Origin: Gemmobacter aquaticus
GTDB taxonomy: Bacteria > Pseudomonadota > Alphaproteobacteria > Rhodobacterales > Rhodobacteraceae
Direction of reading: 5' to 3'
DNA: 64,000 bases
Assembly: GCF_007859075.1 (NCBI RefSeq)
Contig: NZ_VOAK01000011.1
Span: 1 to 64,000, forward strand
Shown here: positions 28,823 through 48,158 of the stretch, in pieces
How positions within the stretch are numbered: position 1 is the first letter of the stretch
How the letters are laid out: each line of letters opens with the position of its first letter
Position numbers and translations under genes: made by a program
The notes under the pieces: generated by a model
What the model was told of the DNA's origin: nothing
Databases searched by the model: none
Seen by the model: only the letters and a program-made list of their open reading frames with translations

Positions 28823-29248
28823 ATGACCATGACTTCGACTGCTTCCGTAACCTCGAGCCGTGGCTGGAACATCGCCATCTGGGTAGGCCAGATCGCACTT
28901 GCAGGTCTTTACCTGATGGGGGCCTGGTTCCATTTTCTCTCACCGGAAGAGGCCGCAAAGATGGGCGCGGTCTGGATGTCGGAAGTGCCGATTGCACTGC
29001 CCCGGTTCATTGGAGTGATGGAAGTTCTTGGCGTGCTCGGGCTGATCCTGCCTGCTGCGACCCGCATCATGCCGCATCTGACCGTCTGGGCCGCGGCTGG
29101 CCTTCTGGGGATCCAGGCGCTCGCCATTCCGTTCCATGCCATCCGCGGCGAATTCGAGCCGCTCCCCTTCAACCTGGTCTACGTCGCACTGGCCGTGTTC
29201 GTCCTCTGGGGCCGCGCCCGGAAGGCACCCATCGCGCCTCGAGCCTGA
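28823..29248 (+). CDS. DoxX-like membrane protein
   Basis: A 141-residue protein with four membrane helices (IWVGQIALAGLYLMGAWFHF; RFIGVMEVLGVLGLILPAAT; LTVWAAAGLLGIQALAIPFH; PFNLVYVALAVFVLWGRAR). The pattern fits the DoxX-like family of small quinone-linked or redox membrane proteins. It is the first gene of the rightward operon divergent from LysR and is 23 bp from the VOC gene. Confidence 0.75.
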   Translation: MTMTSTASVTSSRGWNIAIWVGQIALAGLYLMGAWFHFLSPEEAAKMGAVWMSEVPIALPRFIGVMEVLGVLGLILPAATRIMPHLTVWAAAGLLGIQALAIPFHAIRGEFEPLPFNLVYVALAVFVLWGRARKAPIAPRA

Positions 29249-29271
29249 TCCTCACCCCACAGGAGACCGAC

Positions 29272-30207
29272 ATGGAAACCGCAGCCCTCGCCCTTGCCCG
29301 GCAACGCGCAGCCGACAACCTTCCCGAACGGCTGACTTGGGGCCCGCTGACCTTGTCGGTCACCAACCTTGACCGCGCCGTGGCGTTCTGGACCGAAGTC
29401 ACCGGTTTCTTGCGCCGCCCCGACGAGGGGCCGGGCGTCGCGCTTGGCACCCCCGACCGGACACTGGTCGTGCTTGCCCCCGGCGCCACCAGTCCGGTCA
29501 CGAAGGGATATGCGGGCATGTACCATGTGGCCTTCGGGATGCCTTCACAGGCCGAATTCTCGCGCCGGATGCAGCGGTTCATAGGTCTGGGTGTTCACTT
29601 CTCACCAGTAGATCACCTGATGTCGAAGGCAATGTATCTTGACGATCCCGATGGCCACGGCATCGAGATCGCCTATGAGACGCCCGAACGCTTTGGCCGG
29701 TTCAGTTTTGACGGCGGCCGCTTTGCCATGTTCGACGCACAAGGCCGCCCCCATAGCGGGCGCGAGCGGCTCGATCTGCGGGCCGAACTGGCTGGGGCCG
29801 ATGGCACTGATCCGGCCCTGCCTCTGCACCGAGATGCGACGGTCGCGCATCTGCACTTGCACGTGCCAGCCCTTGACCCTTCGCTCAGCTGGTTCGAGAC
29901 CTTAGGGTTTGCGCGCAACCTGAACCTGCCCGACTTCGGCATGGCGGACATGGGGACGGGTGCGCCCTACACCCACCGGCTGGCGATGAACCTCTGGGCG
30001 GGCTCCGGAGTGCGGCCGGCGCCGCGCAACTCGGCCCGGCTTTTGTCCTACCGGCTGGAGGCGGCCGACGCCGATATCTTCGCCTCCGCGAAGGTGCAGC
30101 TGGCTCAAGACCCGGCAACGGGCGTCTTGAGCGGCACCGATCCCGCCGGTGTCAACCTGACCCTGGCCCTGCGCGCCACCGAACACGAGAAGGATGACGC
30201 AGCATGA
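29272..30207 (+). CDS. two-domain VOC protein (extradiol dioxygenase-like)
   Basis: A 311-residue protein with two vicinal-oxygen-chelate modules. Module 1: LTWGPLTLSVTNLDRAVAFW...MYHVAFGMPSQAEF...DDPDGHGIEIAYETPER; module 2: ATVAHLHLHVPALDPSLSWF...YTHRLAMNLWAG. His and Glu metal ligands (YHVAF, GIEIAYE, HLHLHV) are present. It resembles CatE-type catechol 2,3-dioxygenases (Bacillus YfiE-like). Ring cleavage of an aromatic is plausible but unproven. Its last codon overlaps the next gene by ATGA. Confidence 0.75.
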   Translation: METAALALARQRAADNLPERLTWGPLTLSVTNLDRAVAFWTEVTGFLRRPDEGPGVALGTPDRTLVVLAPGATSPVTKGYAGMYHVAFGMPSQAEFSRRMQRFIGLGVHFSPVDHLMSKAMYLDDPDGHGIEIAYETPERFGRFSFDGGRFAMFDAQGRPHSGRERLDLRAELAGADGTDPALPLHRDATVAHLHLHVPALDPSLSWFETLGFARNLNLPDFGMADMGTGAPYTHRLAMNLWAGSGVRPAPRNSARLLSYRLEAADADIFASAKVQLAQDPATGVLSGTDPAGVNLTLALRATEHEKDDAA

Positions 30208-30854
30208 CCCTGCAAAGTCCGATCGAAACAGCCCCCGCGCCTACACCCTCTCTGCTGCGGCGCCTTCTCTACCCCTACGGCCTCTGGGCGCTTTTCGCCT
30301 TGCCCGGTGTGGCGATGACCGTGGCGATCTTCATCTCGGCCACTCCCGCGACGATGATCCACGAGATGATCCATCCCGCGGGCGAGTTCTCGGCCCGCTT
30401 CCTGATTGTCGCGATGATGGCCACACCGCTTGCCATGCTGCTGCGCGGCTGGCGCGGGCCGCAGTGGATGAAGAAGAACCGCCGCTATCTGGGCGTCGCG
30501 GCCTTCGGCTATGCCCTTCTGCACACGGTGCTCTACCTGATCGACAGGGCCACGCTGGACTCGGTACTGTCAGACCTTCCGAAGTTCGATATCTGGACCG
30601 GCTGGGTTGCCTTCCTGATCTTCGTGCCGCTGGCCATCACCTCGCATGACTGGTTCGTGCGCCGCATGGGCACCTGGTGGAAGGGACTTCAGCGCTGGAC
30701 CTATGCCGCCGCCGTGCTGACACTCGCTCACTGGGCCACGCTGAACGACTGGGGCGGTGTTGCCCCGGTGCTGATCCACTTCGGCCCGCTGTTCGCGCTT
30801 GAGACCTACCGCATCTGCTACTGGTATCTGCGCCCCCGCCCCACCTCCGCCTGA
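30204..30854 (+). CDS. MsrQ/YedZ-like heme membrane protein
   Basis: A 216-residue protein with about six helices of the ferric-reductase-like fold. FSARFLIVAMMATPLAMLLR...YLGVAAFGYALLHTVLYLI...FVRRMGTWWKGLQRWTYAAA then VLTLAHW match MsrQ in order, with His in LLHT and LAHW as heme b ligands. MsrQ normally feeds electrons to the periplasmic reductase MsrP, but no msrP adjoins here; the partner may be a neighbour in this operon. Coupled by ATGA to the VOC gene. Confidence 0.75.
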   Translation: MTLQSPIETAPAPTPSLLRRLLYPYGLWALFALPGVAMTVAIFISATPATMIHEMIHPAGEFSARFLIVAMMATPLAMLLRGWRGPQWMKKNRRYLGVAAFGYALLHTVLYLIDRATLDSVLSDLPKFDIWTGWVAFLIFVPLAITSHDWFVRRMGTWWKGLQRWTYAAAVLTLAHWATLNDWGGVAPVLIHFGPLFALETYRICYWYLRPRPTSA

Positions 30855-30881
30855 CCCAGCCCTTAGCCAGGAGACCCCATC

Positions 30882-31382
30882 ATGGCCATCGCCCCCACCG
30901 CCTACCGCCCTGCCCAGATCTGGCTGCACTGGATCGTCGTCATCGGAGTCATCCTGCAGATCGGCTTCAACAGCGCCATCGTCGCTGTCGTCGATGCGCG
31001 AGAAGCCGGGCAGGTCCCCACTGATGCCGACATAACCTGGGCCTGGTTCCATGTCGGCATCGGCAGCGTGATCCTCTTGTCCGTCATTGCCCGCCTTGTC
31101 TTGCGCTTCCGCCATGGTGTGCCCGGCCATGCCCCCGGCACATCGGCCGCACAGGCGCGCATCGCCAGCATCATGCACAACACGCTTTATGGCCTTCTGC
31201 TGGCCATGGTCGTCACCGGCATGCTGACCTGGAACGAGATCGTCCCCCTCGGTGGCCTGCATTTCGCCCTCAGCACGGCGCTATTCTTCGCGGCTCTCGC
31301 CCATGGCCTTGCCGCCATCTTCAACCAGTTCGTGCGCAAGGATGGCACACTGGCGCGGATGGTCCCCGCGCTGCGGAAGTGA
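30882..31382 (+). CDS. cytochrome b561-family protein
   Basis: A 166-residue protein with four membrane helices. Histidines in IWLHWIVV, WAWFHVGIG, SIMHNTLYG and LAHGLAAIF are at positions that bind two b hemes in bacterial b561 proteins. It would pass electrons between the quinol pool and a periplasmic acceptor. It closes the DoxX-VOC-MsrQ-like operon, suggesting a membrane redox chain. Confidence 0.8.
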   Translation: MAIAPTAYRPAQIWLHWIVVIGVILQIGFNSAIVAVVDAREAGQVPTDADITWAWFHVGIGSVILLSVIARLVLRFRHGVPGHAPGTSAAQARIASIMHNTLYGLLLAMVVTGMLTWNEIVPLGGLHFALSTALFFAALAHGLAAIFNQFVRKDGTLARMVPALRK

Positions 31383-32620: not shown

Positions 32621-34474
32621 ATGATGACTTCCAAATCGCGCAAGACTACCACGGCAATGCTCGCGGTGTTGTCGCTGATGCAACCGGTGCCGGCTTCGAC
32701 ACAGGTCCTTAAGGGCGCCAACGATAACGAAAACGGAGCGATGTCGGATCGGAAAGAGCGCCGCGACCGTGTCGAGGCCCGTTCGTTCGAAGAAATTTGT
32801 GCCGAGGCAATGATTGCAGATCCGCGCGCCTGCGCAGCCCTGATCCGCGACCTTAAGGCAAAGGCCGAACTCAAAGCCCGAGCAGCGACCGACAAGGCTG
32901 GACAGGCCGCGATCGAAGCCAAGGCAGCGGGAAAACTGGCGAAGGAGACCAAGGGCGCTGAAAAAGGTAAGGCCAAGGCAGTGGCAGCGAGGCTCGCCCG
33001 CGAGGCGGATGTCGCCGCAGCCCAGGCCAAGGTGGCGACTGAAACCGCCGAATTGCTTGCGGCCCAGGCACAAGCGGCTGAACAAGCCGCGGACGGCGAG
33101 GCGCAAGCACGGGCGAAAGCTGCCGCATTTGCTAAGGCCCAGGTGGATGCCAAGGTCGCGGCTGACACGACTGAGCAAGCCCAGTCCGAGGCCCAGTCCG
33201 AGGCCGAGGATATGGCGGATGCCAAGGCTGGGACAGAAGCAGAATCCGTTGCTGGTGACCAACAAACCGTAGAGGACACTGCCGCCGCAGAATCTGAACA
33301 ACCCGCTCCTGCGGCAGGTGCGGACGACTGTCCGGCCCAGGTCATCGATGCGGACGGAACAATCCGCTGCGTAGATGCGCTGACGTCCGACGCTATGGCA
33401 GCGATTGCGGTCGGGTCTGATGCCGGGACCGAGGAGCAGGCCGAGGTAATCACCGAGACCGTCACAGAGAGCAAGCACCGCTCCAGCAGCGAGGAATTCG
33501 GCCATAGCGACCCGGTTGAGGAAACAGCGGGCAAGGAGGCCGGCGACGGTAATGCGACCGTTGCGGCCAAGGCGCAACCCGACACCGGACTGAGCGATCT
33601 TGAAAAGGCGGGCCTGATTTTCCTAGGCGCCGTAGCGGTCGGGGCGATCCTGTCCAACGGTCAGCGGGTGGAAACCAACACCGGCGATCGGGTGATCGTG
33701 CAGGAGGACGACGGATCCTTCCGGGTTCTGAAGGATGACGATGCTCTGCTTCGCCAGCCGGGATCAAAGGTGCGCACGGAACGCTTCAACGATGGTTCGA
33801 CCCGTACCACTGTTACGCGTGCCGATGGCACCCGGATCGTCACCATCCGCGATTCCTCGGGACGCGCGCTGCGCCGCATGCGCATCGAGCCGGACGGGCG
33901 CGAGTATCTTTTGATCGACGACACACGCACCTTCGAGCCCGTGACCGTCGAGGAGTTGCCCAGTCCTGCCCAGGACGCTTACGATTATCGGGAGGCATCC
34001 GACGCAGAAAGCCTGCGCCTAGCACTGCTTGCTGCCGAGAGGCGCGACATCGGCCGCAGTTTCAGCCTGCGCCAAGTGCGGGAATATGCCGAAGTGCGCG
34101 CACTGGCGCCTGTGATCAACCTGCAGTCCATCACTTTCGCAACGAACTCTGCCGCTCTTCAGCCATCGCAGGCAGAACAACTGCGACAGATGGGTCTGTT
34201 GATGCGCGAACTGATCACAAAGGATCCGACCGAGTTGTTCCTCGTCGAAGGCCATACCGATGCGATGGGAAGCGCGAGTTATAACCTGCTTCTGTCGGAT
34301 CGGAGGGCAGAGTCGGTGGCGCTCGCCTTCAGCGAGTATTTCGGGGTTCCCGCCGAAAACATGGTCGTTCAGGGCTATGGCGAGAGCTTTCTGCGGGTTC
34401 CTACCCAGGAGGCTGAAAGGGTGAACCGTCGCGTGGCTGTCCGCCGCATCACGCGGCTTCTGTATCGCTATTGA
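32621..34474 (+). CDS. OmpA-family protein with long Ala/Lys/Glu coiled coil
   Basis: A 617-residue envelope protein. A signal-like start (MMTSKSRKTTTAMLAVLSLM) is followed by a long coiled coil (residues about 60-220, runs of A, K, E, Q), an acidic low-complexity part, a hydrophobic segment (EKAGLIFLGAVAVGAILSNG, about residue 327) and a C-terminal OmpA domain (NLQSITFATNSAALQPSQAE; VEGHTDAMGSASYNLLLSDR then RAESVALAF). NxxLSxxRAxxV, which binds diaminopimelate of peptidoglycan, is intact. Likely a peptidoglycan anchor or spacer; between two IS remnants, so its neighbours say little. Confidence 0.8.
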   Translation: MMTSKSRKTTTAMLAVLSLMQPVPASTQVLKGANDNENGAMSDRKERRDRVEARSFEEICAEAMIADPRACAALIRDLKAKAELKARAATDKAGQAAIEAKAAGKLAKETKGAEKGKAKAVAARLAREADVAAAQAKVATETAELLAAQAQAAEQAADGEAQARAKAAAFAKAQVDAKVAADTTEQAQSEAQSEAEDMADAKAGTEAESVAGDQQTVEDTAAAESEQPAPAAGADDCPAQVIDADGTIRCVDALTSDAMAAIAVGSDAGTEEQAEVITETVTESKHRSSSEEFGHSDPVEETAGKEAGDGNATVAAKAQPDTGLSDLEKAGLIFLGAVAVGAILSNGQRVETNTGDRVIVQEDDGSFRVLKDDDALLRQPGSKVRTERFNDGSTRTTVTRADGTRIVTIRDSSGRALRRMRIEPDGREYLLIDDTRTFEPVTVEELPSPAQDAYDYREASDAESLRLALLAAERRDIGRSFSLRQVREYAEVRALAPVINLQSITFATNSAALQPSQAEQLRQMGLLMRELITKDPTELFLVEGHTDAMGSASYNLLLSDRRAESVALAFSEYFGVPAENMVVQGYGESFLRVPTQEAERVNRRVAVRRITRLLYRY

Positions 34475-34775: not shown

Positions 34776-35015
34776 ATGGGAAACGGGGACAGGCCGACGC
34801 CGGAGTTTCGGCGTGAAGCGGTGCGGCTGGCACAGACCAGCGGCCGGACGCGGCGGGAGATCGCGGAGGATCTGGGCATCGGGCTGTCGACGCTGACGCG
34901 ATGGCTTGTTCAGGAGCGCGATGCATCTGAGCCGAGTGAGGCACCGGTCGATGTCCATGACAAGTTGATGAGGCTGCGGCAGGACAATGCGGTCCTGAAG
35001 CAGGAGCGTGACATC
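34776..35015 (+). pseudogene. IS3-family OrfA fragment
   Basis: RPTPEFRREAVRLAQTSGRT then RREIAEDLGIGLSTLTRWL is the OrfA helix-turn-helix, and HDKLMRLRQDNAVLKQERDI the start of the leucine zipper. Homology stops at ERDI (about 35015), where a second OrfA fragment on the other strand abuts. A left IS end (tggacttgcccggg) is visible near 34720. The frame runs on for 80 unrelated codons. Confidence 0.75.
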
Positions 35016-35019
35016 TTTA

Positions 35020-35186
35020 TCGGCATCACCCGAGGTTGCCTTCGCAAACTTGCGCTTCTAGGCAAAGAGCGAGTGCAAACTCACCCCCAAGCGTTCCGAC
35101 ACCTCTTTGATCGGGAAGCCCCGATCGGTGATCTGCGCAACCGCATCACGCTTGAAATCGTCGCTGAAATTGCCGGTGCCCATCAT
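35020..35186 (-). pseudogene. second IS3-family OrfA fragment, amber-mutated
   Basis: On the minus strand from 35186: MMGTGNFSDDFKRDAVAQIT then DRGFPIKEVSERLGVSLHSL, a typical OrfA start. In LFA-stop-KRKFAKATSGD the expected Trp codon (TGG) has become TAG. The fragment ends where it meets the plus-strand OrfA remnant, a tail-to-tail junction of two dead elements. Confidence 0.75.
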
Positions 35187-35270
35187 GGCCTCCTTGCCTC
35201 ACAGTCAGCAAAGAAGACCCCCAAGAAACATGGGGCTATTCAGTTCCGGGGTGAAACGCAGGTGGTGTAG

Positions 35271-35286
35271 GTCGGCACATGCCGAC
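35271..35286. promoter_or_regulatory. 16-bp perfect palindromic arm pair
   Basis: GTCGGCA-CA-TGCCGAC, seven-base arms around a two-base centre, 157 bp upstream of the first Tat-tagged dehydrogenase. It could be an operator or the edge of the IS3 remnant. Not found again upstream of the barrel gene. Confidence 0.35.
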
Positions 35287-35361
35287 CAGTCATTACGTTG
35301 AACCCACGACATCAATACCTCAGGGGGGTGGTGCCTTGGAGCAAACGGCTACGGTGCCAGA

Positions 35362-35376
35362 TACCCAAAATGGGCA
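35362..35376. promoter_or_regulatory. inverted-repeat motif TACCCAAAATGGGCA
   Basis: A six-base inverted repeat (TACCCA/TGGGCA, one mismatch) around AAA, 67 bp before the ATG of the first dehydrogenase. An almost identical copy lies 86 bp before the barrel gene at 39950-39964. Candidate shared operator. Confidence 0.5.
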
Positions 35377-35411
35377 CACACTCTCTTGTGGTCTGGTGGA
35401 TGGCCTTTACG

Positions 35412-35422
35412 CTTTGGCAAAG
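35412..35422. promoter_or_regulatory. palindrome CTTTGGCAAAG
   Basis: A symmetric 11-mer 21 bp before the ATG of the first dehydrogenase. The same 11-mer occurs at 39986-39996 and a one-base variant at 40100-40110, in both cases in the control region of the barrel gene. Always near the TACCCA motif. Confidence 0.45.
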
Positions 35423-35442
35423 AAAATCCATGGGAGAAGCAG

Positions 35443-36453
35443 ATGGAACGGCGCGATGTGCTGAAAGCTGCAGCCTTGACAGCGACGACTGCAGCAACGC
35501 TGGGTGGCATCATGGGCGGCGGGGTCACCCCCGCATCGGCGCAGGGCACCAAGGGTGTTGGTGTGATCGACATTCCGCCGGTCGACCCGGCCTATTTCGT
35601 GCCTGGCAGGTTCACGGGCAAGACGATGATTGTAACCGGCTCGGCCCGGGGTTTGGGTGCCGGGGCAGCCATCCGCGCGGCGCGTGAGGGGGCGAATGTC
35701 GTCGGCGTCGACATCCTGGGCGACCTTGGGCAATCGGTGATCGACGCCATCGTGGCCGAGGGCGGCAAGGCAGTGTTCGTGGCCGGCGACATTGCAGACG
35801 AGGACACCTCAACCAGGATGATCGCCGCGGCGGTGGACAATTTCGGTGGGCTTGATCTTGCGATCAACAATGCCGGGGTGATGGACGGGGCATTTCCGGG
35901 TGATCCGCCAGACTATGCCAGCCAGAAGGACCTGGTATTCGCGCGCCTGCATGAAAGTACCGATGCCTATTGGGAGGGCGTGATCCGCACAAACATTACC
36001 GGCACCTGGCGCAACCTGCGGGCGGAACTGAAGCAGATGGTCGCCCAGGGCCGCGGCGGGGCCATCGTCAACGTCGGCTCGATCGCCGGGCTGACCGGGC
36101 TTGCCGGCAACCCGGCCTATGTCACGACAAAGCATGCCGTCAACGGCATGACCCGCAACGCGGCAGTGGACTACGCGCCCTATGGCATCCGCGTGAACTC
36201 GGTCAACATGGCCGCAACGGACACGCCGATGATCGCTCGGGCGGGGGCAATGGTGGCCGCCTCGATGGCAGAGGTCCAGGGGCCAACCATGGGCCGGGTC
36301 AAGACTCAAAGCCTTCTTGCCTATGCCGACAGCGCCAATCGGCCTTCAACAGTGGCCGAACAGGTTGCCATGATGCTGTTTCTGCTGTCTCCTGAAGCCT
36401 CAAACTTCACGGGGGCGCTTTATGCCACGGATGGCGGCTGGACGACCTACTGA
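35443..36453 (+). CDS. Tat-exported short-chain dehydrogenase, first paralogue
   Basis: A 336-residue protein. MERRDVLKAAALTATTAATL has the twin arginines, a long hydrophobic run and cleavage at TPASA-Q, a Tat signal. The SDR core follows: TGSARGLGAGAA (TGxxxGxG), NVVGVDIL (acidic end of beta-2, favouring NAD), INNAGVMDG, catalytic Ser in VNVGSIAG and YVTTK (YxxxK). With all catalytic residues present it should be an active NAD-dependent oxidoreductase in the periplasm, folded with cofactor before export. GGAGAAGC precedes the ATG. Substrate unknown; its paralogue lies at 37009-38058. Confidence 0.85.
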   Translation: MERRDVLKAAALTATTAATLGGIMGGGVTPASAQGTKGVGVIDIPPVDPAYFVPGRFTGKTMIVTGSARGLGAGAAIRAAREGANVVGVDILGDLGQSVIDAIVAEGGKAVFVAGDIADEDTSTRMIAAAVDNFGGLDLAINNAGVMDGAFPGDPPDYASQKDLVFARLHESTDAYWEGVIRTNITGTWRNLRAELKQMVAQGRGGAIVNVGSIAGLTGLAGNPAYVTTKHAVNGMTRNAAVDYAPYGIRVNSVNMAATDTPMIARAGAMVAASMAEVQGPTMGRVKTQSLLAYADSANRPSTVAEQVAMMLFLLSPEASNFTGALYATDGGWTTY

Positions 36454-36979
36454 CGCTTCTGGCGACAGCGCGACGCCAGAGACCGCGCGCGGTGCTGTAT
36501 CTGCTGTGCTTGAGGCAAATTACCCGACCGTGCAGTACCACTATGTCCAGTTTCTGACCGAGCACCTGATCGATTGCCGCAAGACGCTTGGCGGCGATTT
36601 CGATGACCTGATGCTGCTGGCGGTCATGGGGCAACGCTTTCTGCAGGCGCGGCGCGACCGCGATGCAGGAGATGCTGCGGCTGCCGAACGGATCTGGATG
36701 TCGGCTCTGCGGCTCTCGGATGTAACAGGCATCCCGCGCGAGTCCGTGCGTCGCAAGTTGAAAGGGCTTGCCGCGCGGGGGTGGGTGACACAAGACCCGG
36801 CGCGAGGCTGGGGGCTGGCCGGGTCGCTCGATTATGCCACCGCGCGGATTGACCTTGGCGATCTGGACCGGCGCGGGCTCGAGCGACTTGGAAAGTTGAT
36901 GACAGCACTCATGCCCCTGCTGCTCGACAGGCAAGCGCCTTCGTCCGACGCTGGCGCTTGCGCGATGAAGAGCGTGTAA
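36422..36979 (+). CDS. winged-helix transcriptional regulator
   Basis: About 185 residues if it starts at the ATG overlapping the end of the dehydrogenase; a GTG about 70 bp further in is also possible. WMSALRLSDVTGIPRESVRR then KLKGLAARGWVTQDPARGW is a winged helix-turn-helix (recognition helix IPRESVRRKLKGL). The N-terminal half (YPTVQYHYVQFLTEHLIDCR) is helical and might bind a ligand. It lies between the two exported dehydrogenases and is the obvious candidate for binding the motifs found upstream of both units. Confidence 0.65.
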   Translation: MPRMAAGRPTDASGDSATPETARGAVSAVLEANYPTVQYHYVQFLTEHLIDCRKTLGGDFDDLMLLAVMGQRFLQARRDRDAGDAAAAERIWMSALRLSDVTGIPRESVRRKLKGLAARGWVTQDPARGWGLAGSLDYATARIDLGDLDRRGLERLGKLMTALMPLLLDRQAPSSDAGACAMKSV

Positions 36980-37008
36980 GCCTGCTTTGCCCTGCGTCAC
37001 CAGCGCAA

Positions 37009-38058
37009 TCAGAACACCGTGAAGCCGCCATCGGTGTTGTATGTGGAGCCGGTAATGTTCGACGCTTCCTGTGATAGAAGGAACAGCATGATCGCCACCT
37101 GCTCGGCCGCAGTGGAGCCGCGCTTTTGCTGGTCGCTGAACTGAAGAAGGCTCATGCTCTTGTAAAGGCCGATACCGGTGTCGGCAAAGCCGGTCTCCCG
37201 TCGTTGTCCGATGATCTCGTAGGCGCGCTCAAACATCGGGGTCAGGGTCGTTCCCATCCCGACCGAATTTACACGGATGCCGTAGGCCGCGCAGTCGATG
37301 GCGGCGGTCTTGGTCAACCCTTGCACCGCGTGCTTTGACGCGACATATGGCGCCGTACCGCCGAAGCCCCGGATTCCGGCGACCGAGGCCACGTTGACGA
37401 TCGCGCCGCCGCGGTTCTGGGCGATCATCTGCCGGATCTCATGTCGAAGCGAATAGAACGTCCCATAGACGTTCACCCTGACCACGCGGTCCCAATACGC
37501 ATCGCCCGCCTCGTCGATCCGCGCCATCACGCGGTCCTTCTGATTGACGTAATCGATGGGTTCGTCGGGAAAGAGGGCATCCATGACGCCCGCATTGTTG
37601 ATCGCACCATCCAGCCCGCCATAGGCCGAGACCGCAAGCCTCACCATCTCTTCGCAGACAGCGTTCTCGGCAATGTCACCGCCAAGGAAGGTGGCGCTGC
37701 CGCCCTGAGCCTTGATGTCGTCGATCACCGAGGCACCAAGATCCTCGAGTATATCGACACCGACCACGTTTGCGCCTTCCTTCGCCAGACGGCGAGCGGC
37801 TACCTCGCCCATGCCGCGGGCCGAGCCTGTGACAATTATGGTCTTGCCGGAAAAGCGGCCGGGGATGAAATAGTCATCGGGCACGGGCTCGACGTTCATT
37901 CGGCCGGGGATCTGCGGGTCGGCGGGGTTCCACGGCGTTGCCATGGGGCCGGTCGGGGCCAGGGCCTGTGCTTTCGCGTCGTCGGTGGCGGACGATACGG
38001 TGGCCGCAGCGGCAGCGGCAATTCCTATCCCCTTCAGGATCTCGCGGCGTTCCACCAT
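37009..38058 (-). CDS. Tat-exported short-chain dehydrogenase, second paralogue
   Basis: A 349-residue protein starting MVERREILKGIGIAAAAAAT, a Tat signal cleaved near DAKAQ. The core repeats the plan of its paralogue: PGRFSGKTIIVTGSARGMGE, VVGVDIL, INNAGVMDA, VNVASVAG and YVASK. A linker of about 45 residues (NPADPQIPGRMNVEPVPDDY) precedes the Rossmann fold, longer than in the first paralogue. AAGGAGA lies 6 bp before the ATG. It follows the barrel gene by 28 bp in the same direction, so exported enzyme and outer-membrane protein are made together. Confidence 0.85.
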   Translation of the reverse strand: MVERREILKGIGIAAAAAATVSSATDDAKAQALAPTGPMATPWNPADPQIPGRMNVEPVPDDYFIPGRFSGKTIIVTGSARGMGEVAARRLAKEGANVVGVDILEDLGASVIDDIKAQGGSATFLGGDIAENAVCEEMVRLAVSAYGGLDGAINNAGVMDALFPDEPIDYVNQKDRVMARIDEAGDAYWDRVVRVNVYGTFYSLRHEIRQMIAQNRGGAIVNVASVAGIRGFGGTAPYVASKHAVQGLTKTAAIDCAAYGIRVNSVGMGTTLTPMFERAYEIIGQRRETGFADTGIGLYKSMSLLQFSDQQKRGSTAAEQVAIMLFLLSQEASNITGSTYNTDGGFTVF

Positions 38059-38086
38059 GGAAAATCTCCTTGCGACTGGGACAATG

Positions 38087-39856
38087 TCAGAAGGCGTAGC
38101 GGACAAAGACCATTGCGCTAAGCCAGTCTTTTGCGGTGCCCCCCAAAGCGTCGGTCACGGCCTGACCGGGCACGGTGTAGGCAATATGGCCGTGAACATA
38201 GGTGTTCCGGCTGGCGAACCATTTCACCGTGACATTGGCCTCGTAGCCGTATTCGTCGTCCGACATGAAGGTCAGCGCCGGGTTGCCGCCAATGTTGTTG
38301 GTTTGATCGGCGTAGAAGGCCCAGAGTTGCGGCACCACCTCGACTTTTGGTGTGACGCGCAGGCGGGCCTGCAGGCGATGCGCGATGACATTGCTGTCCT
38401 GCACCACCTTGAAATGGTTCGCGCCCTGCACCCACTGCTCGCCATTGCCACCAGACAGAAGCGGATCCCACCTCTCATAGGCTGCGGTGGCCGGGTCATC
38501 ACCTGAAAAGTAGGACAGCCGGTAGCTGACTGCGGGCGTCCACTTCGCCTCGGCAAATGAATAGCCAAGCTCGGCATAGCCGGCCCATGCGTCCATGTCG
38601 AAATTGTCGTTGGTCTGACGGGCGACTTCTGCCCCTCCGAAGAACCCCGAGGTGCCCGCAGGCTGACTGTAGGTGAAGCGAAGATCCCAGAGGTTCAACC
38701 CCTCACGCGTGCCGGCGATGCCGCCAGTGGGACTGAAATACTGCTGCGTCGATTGTGGCACAGTCAGGTAGCTTGCCCCGACCAGAAGCCCGGGTCGAAC
38801 CACGGATTCGACGTTGACCCCGGTTATGACGGTGTCGCTGTCAATGATCGGCAGCTCATCCGGGTCGACATAGAAGGCTTCAAATTTTGTGCTGTTCCAG
38901 CCGATCTGGCCGAGGACCAGCATATCGGACGACCAACGCGCGTTGGCCTGCAGTGCAGCGCGTTCCGAGCCGTTGGCGGCGGTGTTCGCAATCAGAAATG
39001 CATTGGCCAGCGTGAACCGCTGCCGCCCGGCAGAGAGGTTGAAGGTCAGCCGGTTGCCGGCCTCATCGGTGTTGCCGGTGACAAAGCCTGCATAGGCATC
39101 CTCGACCCCGGTGTAGGTGCGCGCTTCGTCAGTGAAAAGCTCTTGCCCGCGCGATGTCGCAGAGATGGCGCTCAGCCCACCATAGACGAAGAACGTGTCT
39201 GACAGCGGGGTGATCCCGTATAGCCCATAGTGCAGATAGGCCTCCCCCCACTGATCCCACCCAGCCCCGGCGGGCGATCCGGATACCAGCGGGTTGCCCG
39301 CCAGCATCAGGTCAGGGCGGCCATACCATGCGTTGTTGTTGGCGTAGTAAAGGGTCAGGACGTCCAGCTTGTAGCGAAGGATGGTGCCGTTGCGGTCATA
39401 GAGCAGAGGCAGATCGTCACGATCGCCCGTCAGGAAATACCCCTTCGCCACTTTTTGATTGGCGTCATCGGTCAGGGTGACGGTGACAGAGACATCCAGA
39501 CTGCCTGCCGCGCCGGGGGCAAGGTCATAGGCAATATCGGCGATCTCCGGGTTGCGACGGGCCTGGCCTACGGCGGCGTTCGCGCGGTCACGCGAGAAGG
39601 CCGAGCCCGGAAACAGCGCCAACGATCGACGGACGCTGTCGACAACGCGGTTGTTCAGTGCGGCATCCCCGGACGGATTGGCAATCGTGACGCTGACGGT
39701 GCCGACCGGTCGGTCCTCGAACGGGTCGCCGACGTAGGACTGTGAGAAGGCTGGCGACGTGGTGATCGTAACAATCGCGACAATGGCTGCGAGACAGCGC
39801 GCAAAGGCCTTCGATCCGTTTCCGGCGCGACTGGTGAATGCTGGTCGGCTCCGCAT
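38087..39856 (-). CDS. outer-membrane barrel of alginate-export type with POTRA-like front
   Basis: A 589-residue protein from ATG 39856 (GAGGGAC upstream; a longer frame exists). Residues 1-39 are a signal peptide ending SPAFS. Residues about 50-130 (VGTVSVTIANPSGDAALNNR...VVDSVRRSLALFPGSAFSRD...AVGQARRNPEIADIAYDLAP...LDVSVTVTL) follow the beta-alpha-alpha-beta-beta pattern of a POTRA domain. The remainder is a barrel of alternating strands with the alginate-export signature (YRLSYFSGDDPATAAYERWD then PLLSGG) and a final Phe (FVRYAF) for BAM recognition. Probably exports or imports a (poly)saccharide or other anionic compound. First gene of the operon with the second dehydrogenase. Confidence 0.75.
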   Translation of the reverse strand: MRSRPAFTSRAGNGSKAFARCLAAIVAIVTITTSPAFSQSYVGDPFEDRPVGTVSVTIANPSGDAALNNRVVDSVRRSLALFPGSAFSRDRANAAVGQARRNPEIADIAYDLAPGAAGSLDVSVTVTLTDDANQKVAKGYFLTGDRDDLPLLYDRNGTILRYKLDVLTLYYANNNAWYGRPDLMLAGNPLVSGSPAGAGWDQWGEAYLHYGLYGITPLSDTFFVYGGLSAISATSRGQELFTDEARTYTGVEDAYAGFVTGNTDEAGNRLTFNLSAGRQRFTLANAFLIANTAANGSERAALQANARWSSDMLVLGQIGWNSTKFEAFYVDPDELPIIDSDTVITGVNVESVVRPGLLVGASYLTVPQSTQQYFSPTGGIAGTREGLNLWDLRFTYSQPAGTSGFFGGAEVARQTNDNFDMDAWAGYAELGYSFAEAKWTPAVSYRLSYFSGDDPATAAYERWDPLLSGGNGEQWVQGANHFKVVQDSNVIAHRLQARLRVTPKVEVVPQLWAFYADQTNNIGGNPALTFMSDDEYGYEANVTVKWFASRNTYVHGHIAYTVPGQAVTDALGGTAKDWLSAMVFVRYAF

Positions 39857-39949
39857 GTGCGAGTCCCTCGCGGCAATCCTCATGCGCATAGTAACTACAT
39901 CGACATCAGCCGACAGCAACTCGAGAGTGCGCCTTCGCGGTGGCGTTAC

Positions 39950-39964
39950 TACCCAGAATGGGCA
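39950..39964. promoter_or_regulatory. inverted-repeat motif TACCCAGAATGGGCA
   Basis: Differs by one base from the motif at 35362-35376. It lies about 94 bp upstream of the barrel gene's ATG on the control side. Shared position and sequence suggest common regulation of the two dehydrogenase units. Confidence 0.5.
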
Positions 39965-39984
39965 TCAACAAGGATGTGGGCCTG

Positions 39985-39997
39985 CCTTTGGCAAAGG
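39985..39997. promoter_or_regulatory. palindrome CCTTTGGCAAAGG
   Basis: A 13-base perfect palindrome, whose inner 11 bases equal the sequence at 35412-35422. A third, one-base variant is at 40100-40110. Confidence 0.45.
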
Positions 39998-40099
39998 TGG
40001 CGAGCAGCCGGTAGCGAAGTGATCCCGCAAGTTGCCCGATGTGGAGAGAACCGTTCGCGCGGTCGCTGGTCATAATCACCAGTATGTTGATGGGCTTGC

Positions 40100-40110
40100 C
40101 TTTGGGAAAG
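40100..40110. promoter_or_regulatory. third copy, CTTTGGGAAAG
   Basis: Matches the 39986-39996 palindrome except for one base, and shares the flanking TGGGCYTGCC. Further from the barrel start (about 245 bp), so perhaps an auxiliary site. Confidence 0.35.
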
Positions 40111-40316
40111 CCGGATGACTTTTCAGGGGCAGGTCAGCGGAAAAAACAACACCACGCGGATAGAGAGCGATCTTGCCGCAAACACTGCGGGGGCTATGCA
40201 CGAGGGGGCTTCGGATCGTCCTCCTTCGTGATATCGGGCAAGGTCTTCCGGGGGCTCGACCGCTTTGAGGACAGGATACTCTGGGCCAGACGCGGGCAGT
40301 GCTTGCCAGAAGTGGG

Positions 40317-41537
40317 TCAGCCCTCTTTCGGCAACCTCAACACCAGAATGATCGCCAGAATCTTAAGGCCACAGGGCAAAAGCGCATAAGCGAAGGCAAG
40401 ACTGGACAGGGCTTCGGGGCCATTGGGCTGGCCCGGAACGAAGCCGTTCCGGGCCAAGAGCGGCAGAACCATGAAGGCCGCCAGCGCCAGCCCAAGCTTG
40501 CCCGCGAAAGACCAGATGCCGAAGGCAACCGATGCGTTGAGCCCGGCCCTGCTGAGCGCAACCGAGAACATGGCGGGCAGGATGACCATATCGGCGCCCA
40601 ACGCCACGCCGGATGCCGCACAGATCGCCCCAAATCCGATCAAGCTGCCCGGCTCAAGCAGGGCTGCGCCGACAAAGCCGAGAATCGCCAGAGGCATGGC
40701 CAACAGCAGGGTCGCTTTCGCCCCGATCCTTCCGCTCAATCTGGTCCAAAGCGGCACGCTGACTCCTGCCGACAGAAAAAACAGAACAAGCAGCGGTCCG
40801 GACCAGCCCGCGAGTTTCAGTCGGTCTTCGACGAAGAACAGGAACAGCGTCGAGGTGATCGCCACAGGCAGGCTGTTGACCAGGGCGATCGCCAGAAGGC
40901 GGAGAGCGCCCGAGCGGACCAGCCCGGAGGCCGATAGCGGTTCACCGGCCAAAGGAGGCCTCTGCCAGATTGGCCGGGTTACAAGGGCAGTCACCACCGC
41001 GATTGCGCCAAGCAGCAGGCCAAAGGCCGGGTAGCCCTGACCGCCTGCACCAAGCCCGTAGAATATCGATGGCGCAACCGACGCCGTGACCACGCCGGCC
41101 AACATTCCGCTTTCGCGCCAGCCTGCCAGTACCATCAGTTCCGCGGGCTCGGGCCGGAGCGCCAGCGTGGCGCTGCGCCCATAGAGCAGGATCGACCCGA
41201 GGCTGTAGGCTGTGAACAACAGCACCAGCGTGGCCAGAAGCTGCACGGCGACCGATGGTCCAGGGCCGAGGTTGAACAGAATGGGAAAGCCAACCGCCAA
41301 CCCCGCAGCCGCACTCATTGCAAACAGGCCTTGCGCGCGCGGCCAACGGTCAATCGCCCAGCCGATCAATGGGTCCTGCACCAGATCGACCAGACGAATG
41401 ACAAGCAGAAGGGTGCCGATCGTGGCGAGCGATATTCCAAGCTCGGTCGATGCGAACCGCGGCACGTGGATATAGAGCGGGATGCCAGCCGCCGCCAGCA
41501 TAAGCGCATAGAGACTGACGCGTGGATACACCTTCAT
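40317..41537 (-). CDS. MFS transporter, GPH/MelB-like
   Basis: A 406-residue carrier with about 12 membrane helices. The N-terminal part (FASTELGISLATIGTLLLVI then RLVDLVQDPLIGWAIDRW) carries the conserved R.vDa..DPl.G...D signature of the glycoside-pentoside-hexuronide (MelB) group, which import sugars or uronates with Na+ or H+. It lies in the same direction as the barrel operon, upstream of it, so uptake of a product made in the periplasm is a fair guess. Confidence 0.8.
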   Translation of the reverse strand: MKVYPRVSLYALMLAAAGIPLYIHVPRFASTELGISLATIGTLLLVIRLVDLVQDPLIGWAIDRWPRAQGLFAMSAAAGLAVGFPILFNLGPGPSVAVQLLATLVLLFTAYSLGSILLYGRSATLALRPEPAELMVLAGWRESGMLAGVVTASVAPSIFYGLGAGGQGYPAFGLLLGAIAVVTALVTRPIWQRPPLAGEPLSASGLVRSGALRLLAIALVNSLPVAITSTLFLFFVEDRLKLAGWSGPLLVLFFLSAGVSVPLWTRLSGRIGAKATLLLAMPLAILGFVGAALLEPGSLIGFGAICAASGVALGADMVILPAMFSVALSRAGLNASVAFGIWSFAGKLGLALAAFMVLPLLARNGFVPGQPNGPEALSSLAFAYALLPCGLKILAIILVLRLPKEG

Positions 41538-41808: not shown

Positions 41809-42837
41809 CTAACGCGCGCCCCAGGTGTCGCTCAGCTTGTAGCCTTCTGGCCAGGGATCATCGGGGTCCAGCATGTGTTGGTGGATGCCGGTAATCCAGC
41901 CCCGTCCCGAGATCTCCGGCAGGATCGCAGGTTTGCCGCCGACGGTGGTCGTCCCGACGATGCGCCCAGCGAAGGTGGAACCGATCAGGGACTCGGCGGT
42001 CAGGCGGTCTTCCGTCCCCATCTGGCCACGCGCGTGCAGCACAGCCATTCGGGCGGAGAGTGCTGTGCCCGTGGGAGATCGGTCCACCTTGCCCGGCTGG
42101 ATGGCGACGGCCGCTTTGGCGCGCAGTTCATTGCCAGCACGCTCGACCGCCCCGGCAAACAGGCAGAACGAAACGTGCCGCCAGTCCGGGTTTTCCGGGT
42201 GGTGAAATCCAAGCTGTTCGGTCGCGGCATTGGTGATCCGCACGCCAAGCGTCGCGATGTCATGCGCTTCGTCCTGGGTCAGTGAGAAACCGAGAGACGG
42301 GGCGTCGACGAACACGAAGCTGTCGCCGCCATAGGCTGTGTCGACCTGAAGGCTGCCCAGCCCTTCGACCTCAATCCGGGCGTCGAGCGTTGACGCGAAA
42401 CTTGCAAGGTTTTGCACGAAGATCCGCTCGGCCTTGCCGTTGCGGCACTCGGCGCGCACGCGCACAAGCCCGCCCGGTGCCTCGAGCGTGATATGCGTTT
42501 CGGGCTCGGTCATGGGCAGGATGCCGCTGTCCAGCAATACAGTAGAGACGCAGATCGAGTTCGACCCCGACATGGGGGGCGTGTCCTCCGGTTCCATGAT
42601 GATGAAGGCCGCATCTGCATCGGGATGCTTCGGCGGGACCAGCAGGTTGACATGGCGAAAGACCCCGCCGCGTGGCTCGTTCAGAACGAAATTGCGCAGG
42701 GTCTGATCACGCGCAATCCAGCGCGACTGCTCCCAGACCGTATCGCCCGGCGGAGGGGTGACACCGCCCACGATGACATCGCCAACCTCGCCCTCGGCAT
42801 GGGCGGAAATCACATGGATCGTCTTGGTCGAGCGCAT
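41809..42837 (-). CDS. proline-racemase family protein, Ser/Thr variant (3-hydroxyproline dehydratase-like)
   Basis: A 342-residue protein. Where classical members have two catalytic cysteines, it has Ser90 ([11 protein letters not shown]) and Thr256 ([10 protein letters not shown]). Loss of the second Cys to Thr is known in trans-3-hydroxy-L-proline dehydratases, which only need to abstract a proton and eliminate water. The Ser/Thr pair argues against 1,1-racemase activity. It lies 6 bp after the AcnX-type gene, supporting a role with 3-hydroxyprolines. Last gene of the long leftward operon. Confidence 0.75.
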
Positions 42838-42843
42838 GGCAGA

Positions 42844-44520
42844 TTACTCCAGCCAGTGTGGAAGCGCATGGGGCGCTTTCCCCGTGATCGCAGCCTCGGC
42901 GCAGGCGGCAAGCCCGCCAAACCGGATGGCGCGGCCCGAAAGGCCGGGCCCGTAGTGGGCGTATTTCCCCGAGTTCGTCATCAATGCACGGGTTGCCGGC
43001 GGAAAGACCGGCTCCGAGATCGAACACCAGCAAAGGTCCGGCAGCACTTGCACACCATCTGCCTCCAGTCTGGCAAGCGTACCCTCGGCGCGCATGTTTT
43101 CCATCACGGCGCGGCCGGCGGTTACGATGGTCGGGATCGCAACCCTGCGCCCGTCAAGGGCATCGGCCAGAGCCCGGCATTCCTCGGCAGAGGCATGGGG
43201 GCTGCCGATGGCAACAAGCTCGACCGTATCGGGACCTGCGTTCAGGACCTGCCACCCAGCAACCATGTCGGCGCGGGTGATGCAGGCATGATCCGCATCG
43301 GCGGCGATCCGGTGTGCCTCGGGCGTCACGCCTTCGACGTGCAGCATGGGGGCGGCAGAGGTGGTGCCAAAGGCCGCGCAGACAGCCTTGAGGTTTTCCG
43401 GCGTGGGTTTCGCCGCGGCGAGGCCGCGCAGCAACGGGATGCGATCTGGTGCGGCCTTGCCCGCAAGCCAGCCGATCAGTGGCCAGAAGGCATCGTCGAT
43501 GGCCTCGGGCAGCTCCACATCGAGGATCCGCCGCGCCTGGCGCGGGGCGTCCAGATAGACCCCGGCAAGCGGCGCGCGCCCGGTCATTGCGATGCAGAGG
43601 TCCAGAAAGTCCGGATGTTTGGCCGTTCGGGCACCGAGCACGGTATTTGCATAGATCACCGCGTTCGATTCCGCCCAGGCGATGGCCTCGCCCTCATGCG
43701 GGGCGGTGTCCAGCAGATAGGGCGAACAGGTGAAGCTGGGCTGGCAGCCCATCCGGACATAGGCATCGGCAAGCCGCTGCGCCGGCCCCCCGAAACTGGG
43801 TGGTACGCCCTGCGTCCGCCAGTTCCCGTGATCGACAGAGATCGCGTTCATCGTCGTGGGAATGCGCACGCGCGCACCCATGTCGGCCATCTTCTCGGCA
43901 AAGGTCAGATTTGCGGGGCTGGCGTAGATGCAGCCGTCGATATGTCCCTGCGTGACATCGATCAGGCGTTCGGCCCCCTGATTGGCCGCCATCGCACAAA
44001 GGATGCGCATGGCCTGCGCCACGGCCTCGCCCTCGGCCCCTGCCAGCATGGCCTTATCCGTGTCAGTCAGCGCCAGCGTTGTGGTGGCGGGCGGGTGAAC
44101 CGGGATTAACACGCCCTCGGCCTCGATCGTGTCTCTCCCGATCCGGGCAGAGCCGGCCTGCGCCAGCGCGTCAAAGGCATCACGCGTCAGGCGCAGGACG
44201 GGCAGGGTCTTGCCGAACATCTCGGCCGCGATCAACGCGCCAAGCGTCACCACATCTTCTGGTTCGGCAAAGACCAGCGCCGCAGGCGCGCGCTGGTTCA
44301 GAACCATGTCGAGCAATACGCCCGACCCGGTACAGGACCCGCGTGTCCCAGGCATCACGAGAATGCGCCCGACAAGGCTTTTCCCCGCCAGCGGATGATG
44401 CACATCGATCACGCATCCCGTGGCCGGGTCAACACCGCCCCAGAAGCTGATCGGCTCGGTCGTGGCAATGATCTCGCCCGAAGCCGCGCCCGGCAGGATC
44501 GACAGCGCGTGCCCGGTCAT
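42844..44520 (-). CDS. AcnX-type cis-3-hydroxy-L-proline dehydratase, fused subunits
   Basis: A 558-residue aconitase-X protein. The N-terminal 135 residues are the small domain ([20 protein letters not shown]...[20 protein letters not shown]). The large domain shows [34 protein letters not shown] and the closing [20 protein letters not shown] then [15 protein letters not shown]. Such Fe-S enzymes dehydrate cis-3-hydroxy-L-proline to delta-1-pyrroline-2-carboxylate; the alternative is mevalonate-5-phosphate dehydratase, less likely beside hydroxyproline genes. The ATGA overlap with the epimerase gene shows coupling. Confidence 0.85.
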
Positions 44521-45518
44521 TTGACCACGAACCCGTGGGCAAAGGGGTCGCGATCATCGATGAAGATGGTGTTGTACCCCGTCATCCGCGCCCAACCGGC
44601 AATGGAGGGGATGATGGCCGGGCGGCCCGCCACGGTTGCCGAGGCTTCTACCCGGCCCTTGAAGATCGAGCCGATGATCGACTCGTGGTGAAACTCGTCG
44701 CCTACTGCCAGCTTGCCCTTGGCGGCCAGCTGCGCCATGCGGGCCGAAGTGCCGGTTCCGCAGGGGCTGCGGTCGATTGCCTTGTCGCCATAGAAGACCG
44801 CGTTGCGCGCATGGGCGCCGGGGACAGTCGGCTGGCCGGTCCACTGGATATGGCTCAGGCCGTTGATCGCCGGATGCTCGGGGTGAACGAAGTCATACTT
44901 CGCGTTCAGCGCCGCGCGCAGCTTTGGCGAGAAACCGATCAGCTCTCCGGCCGTGAAATCGGCCATGTCGCGGAAGTTCTTCTGCGGCTCGACGATGGCG
45001 TAGAAATTCCCGCCATAGGCCACATCGACCACAACTTCGCCCAGCCCCTCCACCTCTGCCGTCAGACCTTCGGAGTGAAGGAAGGAGGCGACGTTGGTCA
45101 GCCGCACCTCTTCGACAAAGCGGCCCTCCTGGCGGTAGGCGATATCCACCTTGCCCGCTGGCGCCTCGATCGACAACCGTCCCGGTTCGCGGGGGCTGAT
45201 CAGGCCGTTTTCGATGCCCATGGTGATCGTGCCGATGGTGCCATGTCCGCACATCGGCAGGCAGCCCGAGGTTTCGATGAACAGCACCGCCACGTCGCAA
45301 TCCGCCCGCGTTGGCGGATAGAGGATCGAGCCCGACATCATGTCATGCCCACGCGGCTCGAACATCAGACCGGTGCGGATCCAGTCGAACTCGCGCAGGA
45401 AATGGGCGCGCCGCTCCAGCATGTCGGCGCCCTCCAGACGGGGTCCGCCACCGGCGACGAGGCGGACGGGGTTGCCGCAGGTGTGGCCGTCGATGCAGGA
45501 GAAGGTATGGGTTGCCAT
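44517..45518 (-). CDS. 4-hydroxyproline 2-epimerase
   Basis: A 333-residue proline-racemase family member with both catalytic cysteines: Cys90 in PMCGHGTIG and Cys252 in [29 protein letters not shown] at the front fits 4-hydroxyproline epimerases rather than proline racemase. It converts trans-4-hydroxy-L-proline to cis-4-hydroxy-D-proline, the first step of the pathway. It lies 7 bp after the D-amino-acid oxidase gene and is coupled to the AcnX gene. Confidence 0.9.
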
Positions 45519-45525
45519 GATTGCC

Positions 45526-46770
45526 TCAGAAGCGTTGTGGCGAGAAGGGGGTCATGTCGATCGCGGGGGCCGTTCCGGTAACCAGATCCGCCACCAGCCG
45601 CGCAGTGCCTGCGGATTGCGTCAGGCCCAGATGGCCGTGGCCAAAGGCGTAGGTCACGCGTGATGTGGCGCGCGCCTTGCCGATGGCGGGCAGGCTGTCG
45701 GGAAGCGACGGGCGGAAGCCCATCCATTGAACACCACCCGTGGGGCGCAGCCCGGGAAGAAAGCTCTGTGCCTTCTTGAGCATGGCCTCGGACCGGCGGA
45801 AGTTCGGCGGCAGATCCAGCCCGCCCAGTTCGACCGCGCCGCCCACGCGGATGCCACTGGCAAGCCGGGTGATGACAAAACCATGCCCGCCAAAGGTTAT
45901 CTGTGTGCGCAGGTCAAAGGCATCGCCGGGCAGGGTGGTGTTGTAGCCGCGCTCGGTTTCCAGCGGGATACGCTCACCCATACCGCGGGCCAGAAGATGG
46001 GAATGCGCGCCTGCCGCCAGCACGACCTGCGCCGCGCGCCGTGTCTGGCCGTCGGCCAGCGTCAGCGTGACGCCTGCGTCATCGGGAGTAAGGGCCACGA
46101 CCTCGCCTTGGGTCACCTCGCCGCCCTGTGTGCGCAGACGTTCGGCCAGGGCGAGCGTGTAGTCCTTGGGGTCGGTGATCGAGTACCAGCCGGGGGTAAA
46201 GGTGCCGCGGATGAAGCGGGGCGAAAGGCCGGGCTGAACCTCGGCCATTTCTTCGGGGTCCATATGGCGGAAGTCGATCCCGTGATCGGCCCGCGCCTGC
46301 CAGCCCGGCAAGGATGCGCGGAACTCGGCCTCTGTCTCATAGACCTGCAGGTTGCCTTCCTTGCGCAGCATCGCGAGCAAGCCTGTTGCCGCAAGAAACG
46401 GCTCCAGCTCGGCCTTGGACAGATCCATCAGCGCCGTCTGTGCGCGGGTCGAGGCTGCAACCCGCGATGGTGCGCAAGCCCGCCAGAAGCGATACATCCA
46501 GGGCGCGATGCGCAGCGCATAGGCGGGTGGCACGCTCAGCGGTCCGAGCGGGTCGAGGAGCCACTTGGGCGCCTTGCGCAGGATCCCCGGAGAGGCCAGC
46601 GGCAGGATGTCGGTAAAGGCAAAGGCGCCGGCATTCCCCGCCGAAGCCCCCGCAGCCGGCCCTTCGCGGTCAAGCACGGTCACGGTTCGCCCCCGCGCCC
46701 GCAAGGCCAGTGCGGCCGACAGGCCGACAACACCCGCGCCGACCACGATCACATCAATATTCCGGTCCAA
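45526..46770 (-). CDS. FAD-dependent D-hydroxyproline oxidase/dehydrogenase (DadA-like)
   Basis: A 414-residue flavoprotein. DVIVVGAGVVGLSAALALRA is the FAD-binding GxGxxG motif, followed by VTVLDREGPAAGAS. The C-terminal GGVQWMGFRPSLPDSLPAIG then FGHGHLGLTQSAGTARLVADL is typical of DAO/DadA enzymes. It oxidises cis-4-hydroxy-D-proline to delta-1-pyrroline-4-hydroxy-2-carboxylate. The start is put at TTG 46770, 7 bp after the stop of the ATPase gene; an upstream in-frame start would overlap that gene. Confidence 0.85.
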   Translation of the reverse strand: MDRNIDVIVVGAGVVGLSAALALRARGRTVTVLDREGPAAGASAGNAGAFAFTDILPLASPGILRKAPKWLLDPLGPLSVPPAYALRIAPWMYRFWRACAPSRVAASTRAQTALMDLSKAELEPFLAATGLLAMLRKEGNLQVYETEAEFRASLPGWQARADHGIDFRHMDPEEMAEVQPGLSPRFIRGTFTPGWYSITDPKDYTLALAERLRTQGGEVTQGEVVALTPDDAGVTLTLADGQTRRAAQVVLAAGAHSHLLARGMGERIPLETERGYNTTLPGDAFDLRTQITFGGHGFVITRLASGIRVGGAVELGGLDLPPNFRRSEAMLKKAQSFLPGLRPTGGVQWMGFRPSLPDSLPAIGKARATSRVTYAFGHGHLGLTQSAGTARLVADLVTGTAPAIDMTPFSPQRF

Positions 46771-46777
46771 TTTGGCC

Positions 46778-48146: not shown

Positions 48147-48158
48147 CTGATTTCCCCC

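Follow-up and report, generated by a model that had tools for sequence, protein, structure and literature searches.

Why would a dehydrogenase of the nicotinamide type be sent out of the cytoplasm, and why would its gene stand beside that of an outer-membrane barrel? The question is raised by positions 35,271 to 41,537 of the stretch of DNA analysed here, called the window throughout, which is the first 64 kb of contig NZ_VOAK01000011.1 in the 3.99-Mb genome of Gemmobacter aquaticus (G000). Free nicotinamide adenine dinucleotide (NAD) is not expected in the periplasm and NAD-dependent chemistry is thought of as cytoplasmic; few exceptions are known. Five genes lie together at this locus, encoding two short-chain dehydrogenases/reductases (SDR1 and SDR2) with signals of the twin-arginine translocation (Tat) type, a winged-helix regulator, a putative outer-membrane barrel with a POTRA domain and a GPH carrier, and all five exist as an earlier note on this DNA had described them. 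That note joined them into one envelope pathway. What is conserved between genomes is a core of two genes, barrel and Tat-type SDR, a unit both smaller and firmer than the five-gene pathway. The features of this core and of the second dehydrogenase are as follows:

37009..38058, minus strand: SDR2, a short-chain dehydrogenase of Tat type, whose gene follows that of the barrel on the same strand after 28 bp
37963..38058, minus strand: Tat-type signal of SDR2 (RREILK, alanine-rich stretch, AKA/AQA)
37528..37578, minus strand: SDR2 insertion of about 14–17 residues after NNAG, also in SDR1 (seen on aligning 12 further SDRs of this genome together with four other relatives)
38087..39919, minus strand: predicted outer-membrane protein with signal peptide, one POTRA and an 18-strand AlgE-type barrel (Pfam Alginate_exp, 24.0 bits)
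39473..39709, minus strand: predicted POTRA domain (beta-alpha-alpha-beta-beta) in the barrel protein, read from the modelled secondary structure at residues 46–124
38090..39385, minus strand: predicted 18-strand barrel
35443..36453, plus strand: SDR1, Tat-type short-chain dehydrogenase, paralogue of SDR2 (same arrangement in locus L032)
35443..35541, plus strand: Tat-type signal of SDR1 (RRDVLK ... ASA)

The pairing is seen in 54 barrel loci, obtained with a six-barrel profile from a scan that took one genome for each species, a collection that includes near-relatives (e.g. L038, L039, L040 and L070) and many metagenome-assembled genomes (MAGs). At 49 of them an SDR1/SDR2-family dehydrogenase is present, whole or in part; of the five remaining, L077 has a barrel match that reaches almost to the end of its contig, and L082–L085 have barrels of 31–40% identity. 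After 14 of the 54 loci had been dropped as redundant, truncated, frameshifted or of divergent type, 41 pairs remained including that of the window, and in 37 of these the SDR gene follows the barrel gene on the same strand at a distance of 400 bp or less (median gap 31 bp). The exceptions are a convergent pair (L043), a divergent pair (L071), a gap of 562 bp into which a regulator-type match falls (L073) and an SDR gene located upstream (L079). Barrel and SDR distances correlate (r = 0.65, none of 2000 permutations being as high; 40 loci, L076 left out), a result that does not separate co-inheritance from co-function. Judged by sequence comparison, the barrel–SDR pairing is well supported. 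A few loci look damaged: in Paracoccus solventivorans (L075, 10001–11496) the start of the barrel gene continues directly into the terminal portion of an SDR gene, as if by a deletion, and L042, L076 and L081 also look broken, with assembly error a possibility.

At the level of whole genomes, the close barrel and the SDR family share the same 16 genomes across three sets of 295, 52 and 63 genomes, among the SDR candidates scored; since the number of candidates was limited, a missed SDR is possible in each of these sets and in the 28-genome search and the phylum-wide sample below. In the 295 genomes of the window genome's family (best seven candidates per genome scored), the close barrel (at least 60% identity) occurs in 5 and the SDR family in 6, with 5 common to both; the sixth SDR (G253), 52% identical over its matched part, starts without a signal in a genome that has no barrel match, and 13 further genomes hold only a distant barrel of about 29–33%. 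The two genus sets were centred on genomes already known to hold the barrel. Among 52 genomes of the genus of G677 (Aquimarina; at most 41 candidates scored), five have the close barrel and the same five the SDR, two more having only a barrel of 30–31%, while among 63 of the genus of G678 (Rhizobium/Peteryoungia; at most 34 candidates) six have the barrel and the same six the SDR, one of them frameshifted. When 28 of 29 genomes, all but that of L057, were searched whole (at most 77 candidates scored), the SDR family was found in 24, and all 26 places fell at the coordinates of the barrel loci; the four genomes without it are three with divergent barrels and one with a broken SDR. In a phylum-wide sample of 398 genomes, with the best five candidates scored in each, the SDR was found only in the window's own genome. 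The earlier note had named conservation of the genes together as its own test, and this holds for the pair of barrel and SDR but not for the set of five.

The pair's hosts belong to three phyla, comprising Alpha- and Betaproteobacteria, Flavobacteriaceae and one cyanobacterial case (L079), a MAG on a long branch. In the SDR tree, five Flavobacteriaceae sequences form one group (100/100) that nests within a set of 20 (100/100), otherwise alphaproteobacterial and including SDR2, and transfer between phyla seems likely from this branching. Judged by these genes, the nearest relatives of the window are Rhodobacterales MAGs and Paracoccaceae. The arrangement of the nearest, L032, matches that of the window (barrel, SDR2, then regulator and SDR1 on the opposite strand), and against it the ratio of non-synonymous to synonymous substitution rates is 0.086 for the barrel, 0.085 for SDR2, 0.070 for SDR1 and 0.179 for the regulator; the genes are under purifying selection.

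SDR1 and SDR2 are 54% identical and both carry the classical SDR site that had been read from the sequence before, with TGxxxGxG, NNAG and the Ser-Tyr-Lys residues; adh_short is over its cut-off, and their Pfam matches at E ≤ 0.001 are adh_short, adh_short_C2 and KR only, with Gfo/Idh/MocA domains not among them. Throughout 45 aligned members Arg4 and Arg5 are invariant, as are Asp102, Tyr238 and Lys242, and Ser225 is nearly so. The proposed twin-arginine signals are likewise conserved, the RR motif being found in 48 of the 49 loci with an SDR (L075 has lost that part; L043 keeps the motif but has no ordinary start codon). All 49 selected intact N-termini combine RR with a hydrophobic residue at +4, at least 12 uncharged residues in a row and an AxA match, by a rule defined in this analysis whose AxA element is loose and had no shuffle control. 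No such N-terminus was found in the 12 parsed other SDRs of the genome, out of 20 fetched from 32 other PF13561 matches. Tat-type export of the SDRs thus appears well supported as far as N-terminal sequences can indicate it. A relative of the Tat-SDRs in L094 (4699–5538) has no signal and a shorter stretch after NNAG, and offers a natural control.

Structures were predicted for proteins of the window and of the barrel-search loci. The model of SDR2 (mean predicted local distance difference test score, pLDDT, 83.0) has the standard SDR fold, and the closest structures belong to SDRs of the alcohol and carbonyl kinds or to relatives of these, among them 1-(4-hydroxyphenyl)ethanol dehydrogenase (4URE), carbonyl reductase (5H5X) and isopiperitenol dehydrogenase (7DJS), with 39–40% identity in the structurally aligned core. 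The mature protein consists of the SDR core and a short N-terminal arm. Two stretches exceed ordinary SDR length, namely the approximately 14–17 residues after NNAG and a segment after beta-6, whereas that after beta-2 has the usual length. In the alignment, 4URE lacks the insertion following NNAG, and its chain starts at about the SDR core. An Asp after beta-2 in SDRs points to a preference for NAD, and its presence here suggests NAD rather than NADP as the cofactor.

For the partner, the earlier reading of a POTRA-like, alginate-export-type barrel is borne out by profile matches and by the model. The window barrel scores 24.0 bits on Alginate_exp (PF13372), under the gathering cut-off of 25.2, and its relative L025 reaches 60.9, over it; all 41 aligned barrel members match at E ≤ 1 (best 3.1e-13). 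The AlphaFold2 model (mean pLDDT 77.8, predicted template modelling score 0.72) has 18 long strands, and AlgE is its best structural match, with 13% identity in the structural alignment. Unlike AlgE, the protein has an N-terminal POTRA, and no alginate synthesis genes were seen alongside the barrel. A profile of the POTRA region scores 32.6 against six POTRAs of this genome, where 40 column shuffles reach at most 16.1, and the region matches Alr2269 weakly (E 0.43); a PF07244 search listed other places only, and not this region. In its predicted structure, the barrel protein is a POTRA joined to an AlgE-type fold. The true start of its gene is probably near 39856.

How might such a pair work? 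We favour, with a confidence about midway between belief and doubt, a two-gene transferable envelope module in which a periplasmic, NAD-retaining alcohol dehydrogenase or epimerase has a dedicated channel. The SDR would fold in the cytoplasm, bind NAD(H) and leave through Tat as a folded holoenzyme, and the outer-membrane barrel would pass a specific small molecule between outside and periplasm, most likely a cyclic or aromatic secondary alcohol or ketone, or a polar relative. The POTRA would face the periplasm and may keep the SDR close to the pore. Because free NAD is not expected in this compartment, the enzyme probably retains its cofactor and would work in a redox-neutral manner, either by epimerisation via a bound ketone or by oxidising one substrate while another is reduced; periplasmic NAD chemistry would call for a retained cofactor together with such redox-neutral work or with an acceptor. 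SDR1 and SDR2 may represent two specificities, or two stereochemistries of one step. The bound NAD, the redox-neutral chemistry, the substrate, the direction of transport and the POTRA docking are what we infer here. A redox-neutral precedent is the periplasmic glucose-fructose oxidoreductase of Zymomonas mobilis, which, like the aldose-aldose oxidoreductase of Caulobacter, is a nicotinamide-type oxidoreductase with a Tat signal; unlike the present classical SDRs, these are Gfo/Idh/MocA enzymes, for which the available part of the source mentions no POTRA barrel partner (PMC4628093).

Several observations weigh against this reading or parts of it. The Pfam model TAT_signal is matched by just 22 of 45 members at E ≤ 1 (best 4.9e-5), leaving 23 unmatched, and SDR2 of the window scores 14.0 bits, under the cut-off of 22.7. 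The NAD-covering insertion of mycofactocin SDRs, which we take to lie between beta-2 and beta-3, is absent, with no insertion there relative to ordinary SDRs. In G274, a barrel–SDR pair is accompanied by a second Tat-type SDR, 73–74% identical and SDR1-like, on another contig. Neighbouring genes of the pair loci agree on no pathway; sugar- or polyol-like genes recur by eye in a few Rhodobacterales loci, but no neighbour is general across loci, and assigning the substrate from gene neighbours was rejected. Finally, a 31% identical barrel that has two signal-less SDRs as neighbours (L083–L085) shows an alignable POTRA region as well, which means that the POTRA need not serve a Tat-SDR, and the wider barrel family described below suggests that what its members share is a channel with an enzyme acting on the cargo, and not a fixed contact between proteins. 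The most specific version of the favoured reading, in which an exported, NAD-retaining SDR docks via the POTRA to the AlgE-type pore and epimerises or dismutates its substrate at the channel mouth, as a two-gene cassette spread between phyla, is put forward only as a rather doubtful proposition.

An export direction, with the barrel releasing a periplasmic product (glycan, lipid or signal) after its oxidation or epimerisation by the SDR in an AlgE-like way, would be in line with the closest fold being that of an exporter; we consider it unlikely. Still less likely, in our judgement, is a net periplasmic oxidase whose bound NADH gives electrons to an external carrier, be it a quinone or a dedicated redox partner. 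This idea draws on TIGR03971, the family of mycofactocin-coupled SDRs, being the best NCBIfam match of SDR1 (152 bits), and on the extended segment after beta-6. Mycofactocin is the proposed partner of NAD-burying SDRs that carry an insertion at the NAD/adenosine site (PMC5264612); as in the present enzymes, their core is that of a classical SDR and the segment after beta-6 is lengthened. The present SDRs differ from these enzymes in the missing insertion after beta-2 and in their Tat-type signal. Moreover, the TIGR03971 scores of 152.3 and 150.2 bits are about half the cut-off of 300, the mycofactocin maturase is over its cut-off in none of 29 genomes (weaker matches occur in 9 of these and in 7 of 14 control genomes), and no recurring redox partner gene was seen beside the pair. 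Coupling to mycofactocin was rejected on the score, the absent insertion and the maturase result. With this coupling unsupported and glucose-fructose oxidoreductase as precedent, our analysis would favour epimerisation or paired oxidation and reduction, with low confidence in the details.

Omp85 barrels have 16 strands. A mechanism resembling two-partner secretion, by which the POTRA barrel would move the SDR across the outer membrane or display it on the surface, could appeal to the POTRA domain and to the close pairing with one exported protein. Single-POTRA members of the Omp85/TpsB group (PlpD, Sam50) likewise have the POTRA N-terminal to an outer-membrane barrel, according to the available part of PMC4104836. 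Here, however, the barrel is predicted to be 18-stranded and AlgE-like, and instead of a passenger there is a separate exported protein whose mature part is an SDR with a short N-terminal arm and which, given its Tat-type signal, should fold before export. Omp85-type secretion was rejected as first choice for the barrel type, and we hold this mechanism to be very improbable.

The remaining proposal concerns the other genes of the locus:

36422..36979, plus strand: winged-helix regulator, facultative part (HTH_IclR, 21.7 bits), overlapping the end of SDR1 by 32 bp
40317..41537, minus strand: GPH carrier, 397 bp upstream of the barrel gene

The full pathway of the earlier note, in which a substrate would enter through the outer membrane, be oxidised in the periplasm by the two SDRs and be taken in by the GPH carrier, with the local regulator in control, has in its favour that all its genes are adjacent in the window. 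Nevertheless, a carrier homologue of more than 60 bits lies near the barrel in none of the 54 loci. Such homologues are common (157 of the 295 genomes of the family); those of the four further genomes with a close barrel share 43–45% identity and are placed on a different contig or, in G279, at a distance of about 258 kb. In the window, 397 bp separate the carrier from the barrel gene, and its other neighbours are proline-racemase, AcnX, amino-acid oxidase and ABC-transport genes. The regulator type is kept in 19 of the 49 Tat-SDR loci and is a facultative member, and while SDR1 is indeed a paralogue of SDR2, two full SDRs occur in just 6 of 54 loci (L032, L033, L035, L036, L049 and L074). The five-gene pathway was rejected on the carrier and regulator results and is hardly to be expected. 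Equally remote is the view that the N-termini are merely Tat-like and the SDRs ordinary cytoplasmic dehydrogenases: the members unmatched by TAT_signal speak for it, but the invariant RR, the parsed SDRs of the genome and the barrel-less relative without a signal speak against it.

Searches of the open-licence literature turned up no account of Tat-exported SDRs that form a family partnered by a POTRA-AlgE-type protein. Oxidoreductases of the nicotinamide type that are exported have been described, as have AlgE-type channels; their pairing and the POTRA-AlgE-type architecture, which the pair adds, appear new. As a near-obligate two-gene pair in three phyla, the system makes the working of periplasmic NAD enzymes directly testable on a simple system.

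Related barrels occur with other enzymes. A second type (L025 and L083–L085, 31–34% identical, the POTRA region being alignable in L025) is accompanied by a pair of SDRs without signals as well as a small membrane-like protein, and L084 and L085 also carry the same regulator type. MarC-like or regulator genes are present in several loci of this type (L083–L085, L025, L082). In a third type, the sister system of L026–L031, an AlgE-like barrel without the POTRA region is followed by a seemingly signal-bearing hydrolase of PF00144 type (Pfam was run on L029 and the other loci assigned by similarity, and signals in these barrel relatives were judged by eye), and the regulator type adjoins four of the six loci (L027, L028, L030, L031). 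Pseudomonas putida L082 has the hydrolase, both signal-less SDRs and a barrel together. Plasmid matches comprise divergent barrels only, one of them with a serine hydrolase. An Abhydrolase_9 membrane hydrolase (PF10081; Pfam was run on L069, other loci by similarity) lies near 7 of the 54 loci (L035, L036, L049, L051, L053, L055, L069) and also near L027, L030 and L094, sometimes with DUF308. Both system types repeatedly have as a neighbour a small membrane-like protein, about 170 residues long (L034, L035, L046, L051, L031, L027); the three run against Pfam (L034, L024, L031) gave no match.

Concerning the surroundings of the locus, a scan for promoters and terminators gave 1 promoter-like site, against 1.7 in shuffles, and 7 terminator-like sites, against 5.5 (sd 2.7), neither of them a usable lead. 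Bordering the GPH carrier, 41809–48824 on the minus strand holds two proline racemase-like genes, AcnX, an FAD amino-acid oxidase and an ABC transporter, which presumably serve hydroxyproline-type catabolism. Directly upstream of SDR1 lies an IS3-type transposase fragment (34776–35270; HTH_Tnp_1 at 32.0 bits, over the cut-off of 24.1, and the IS3 model at 35.5, under its cut-off of 160). Further upstream, 32621–34474 encodes an OmpA-domain protein with a long alanine-rich middle region, and DoxX-like, glyoxalase-like, MsrQ-like ferric reductase and cytochrome b561 genes stand in a row at 28769–31382.

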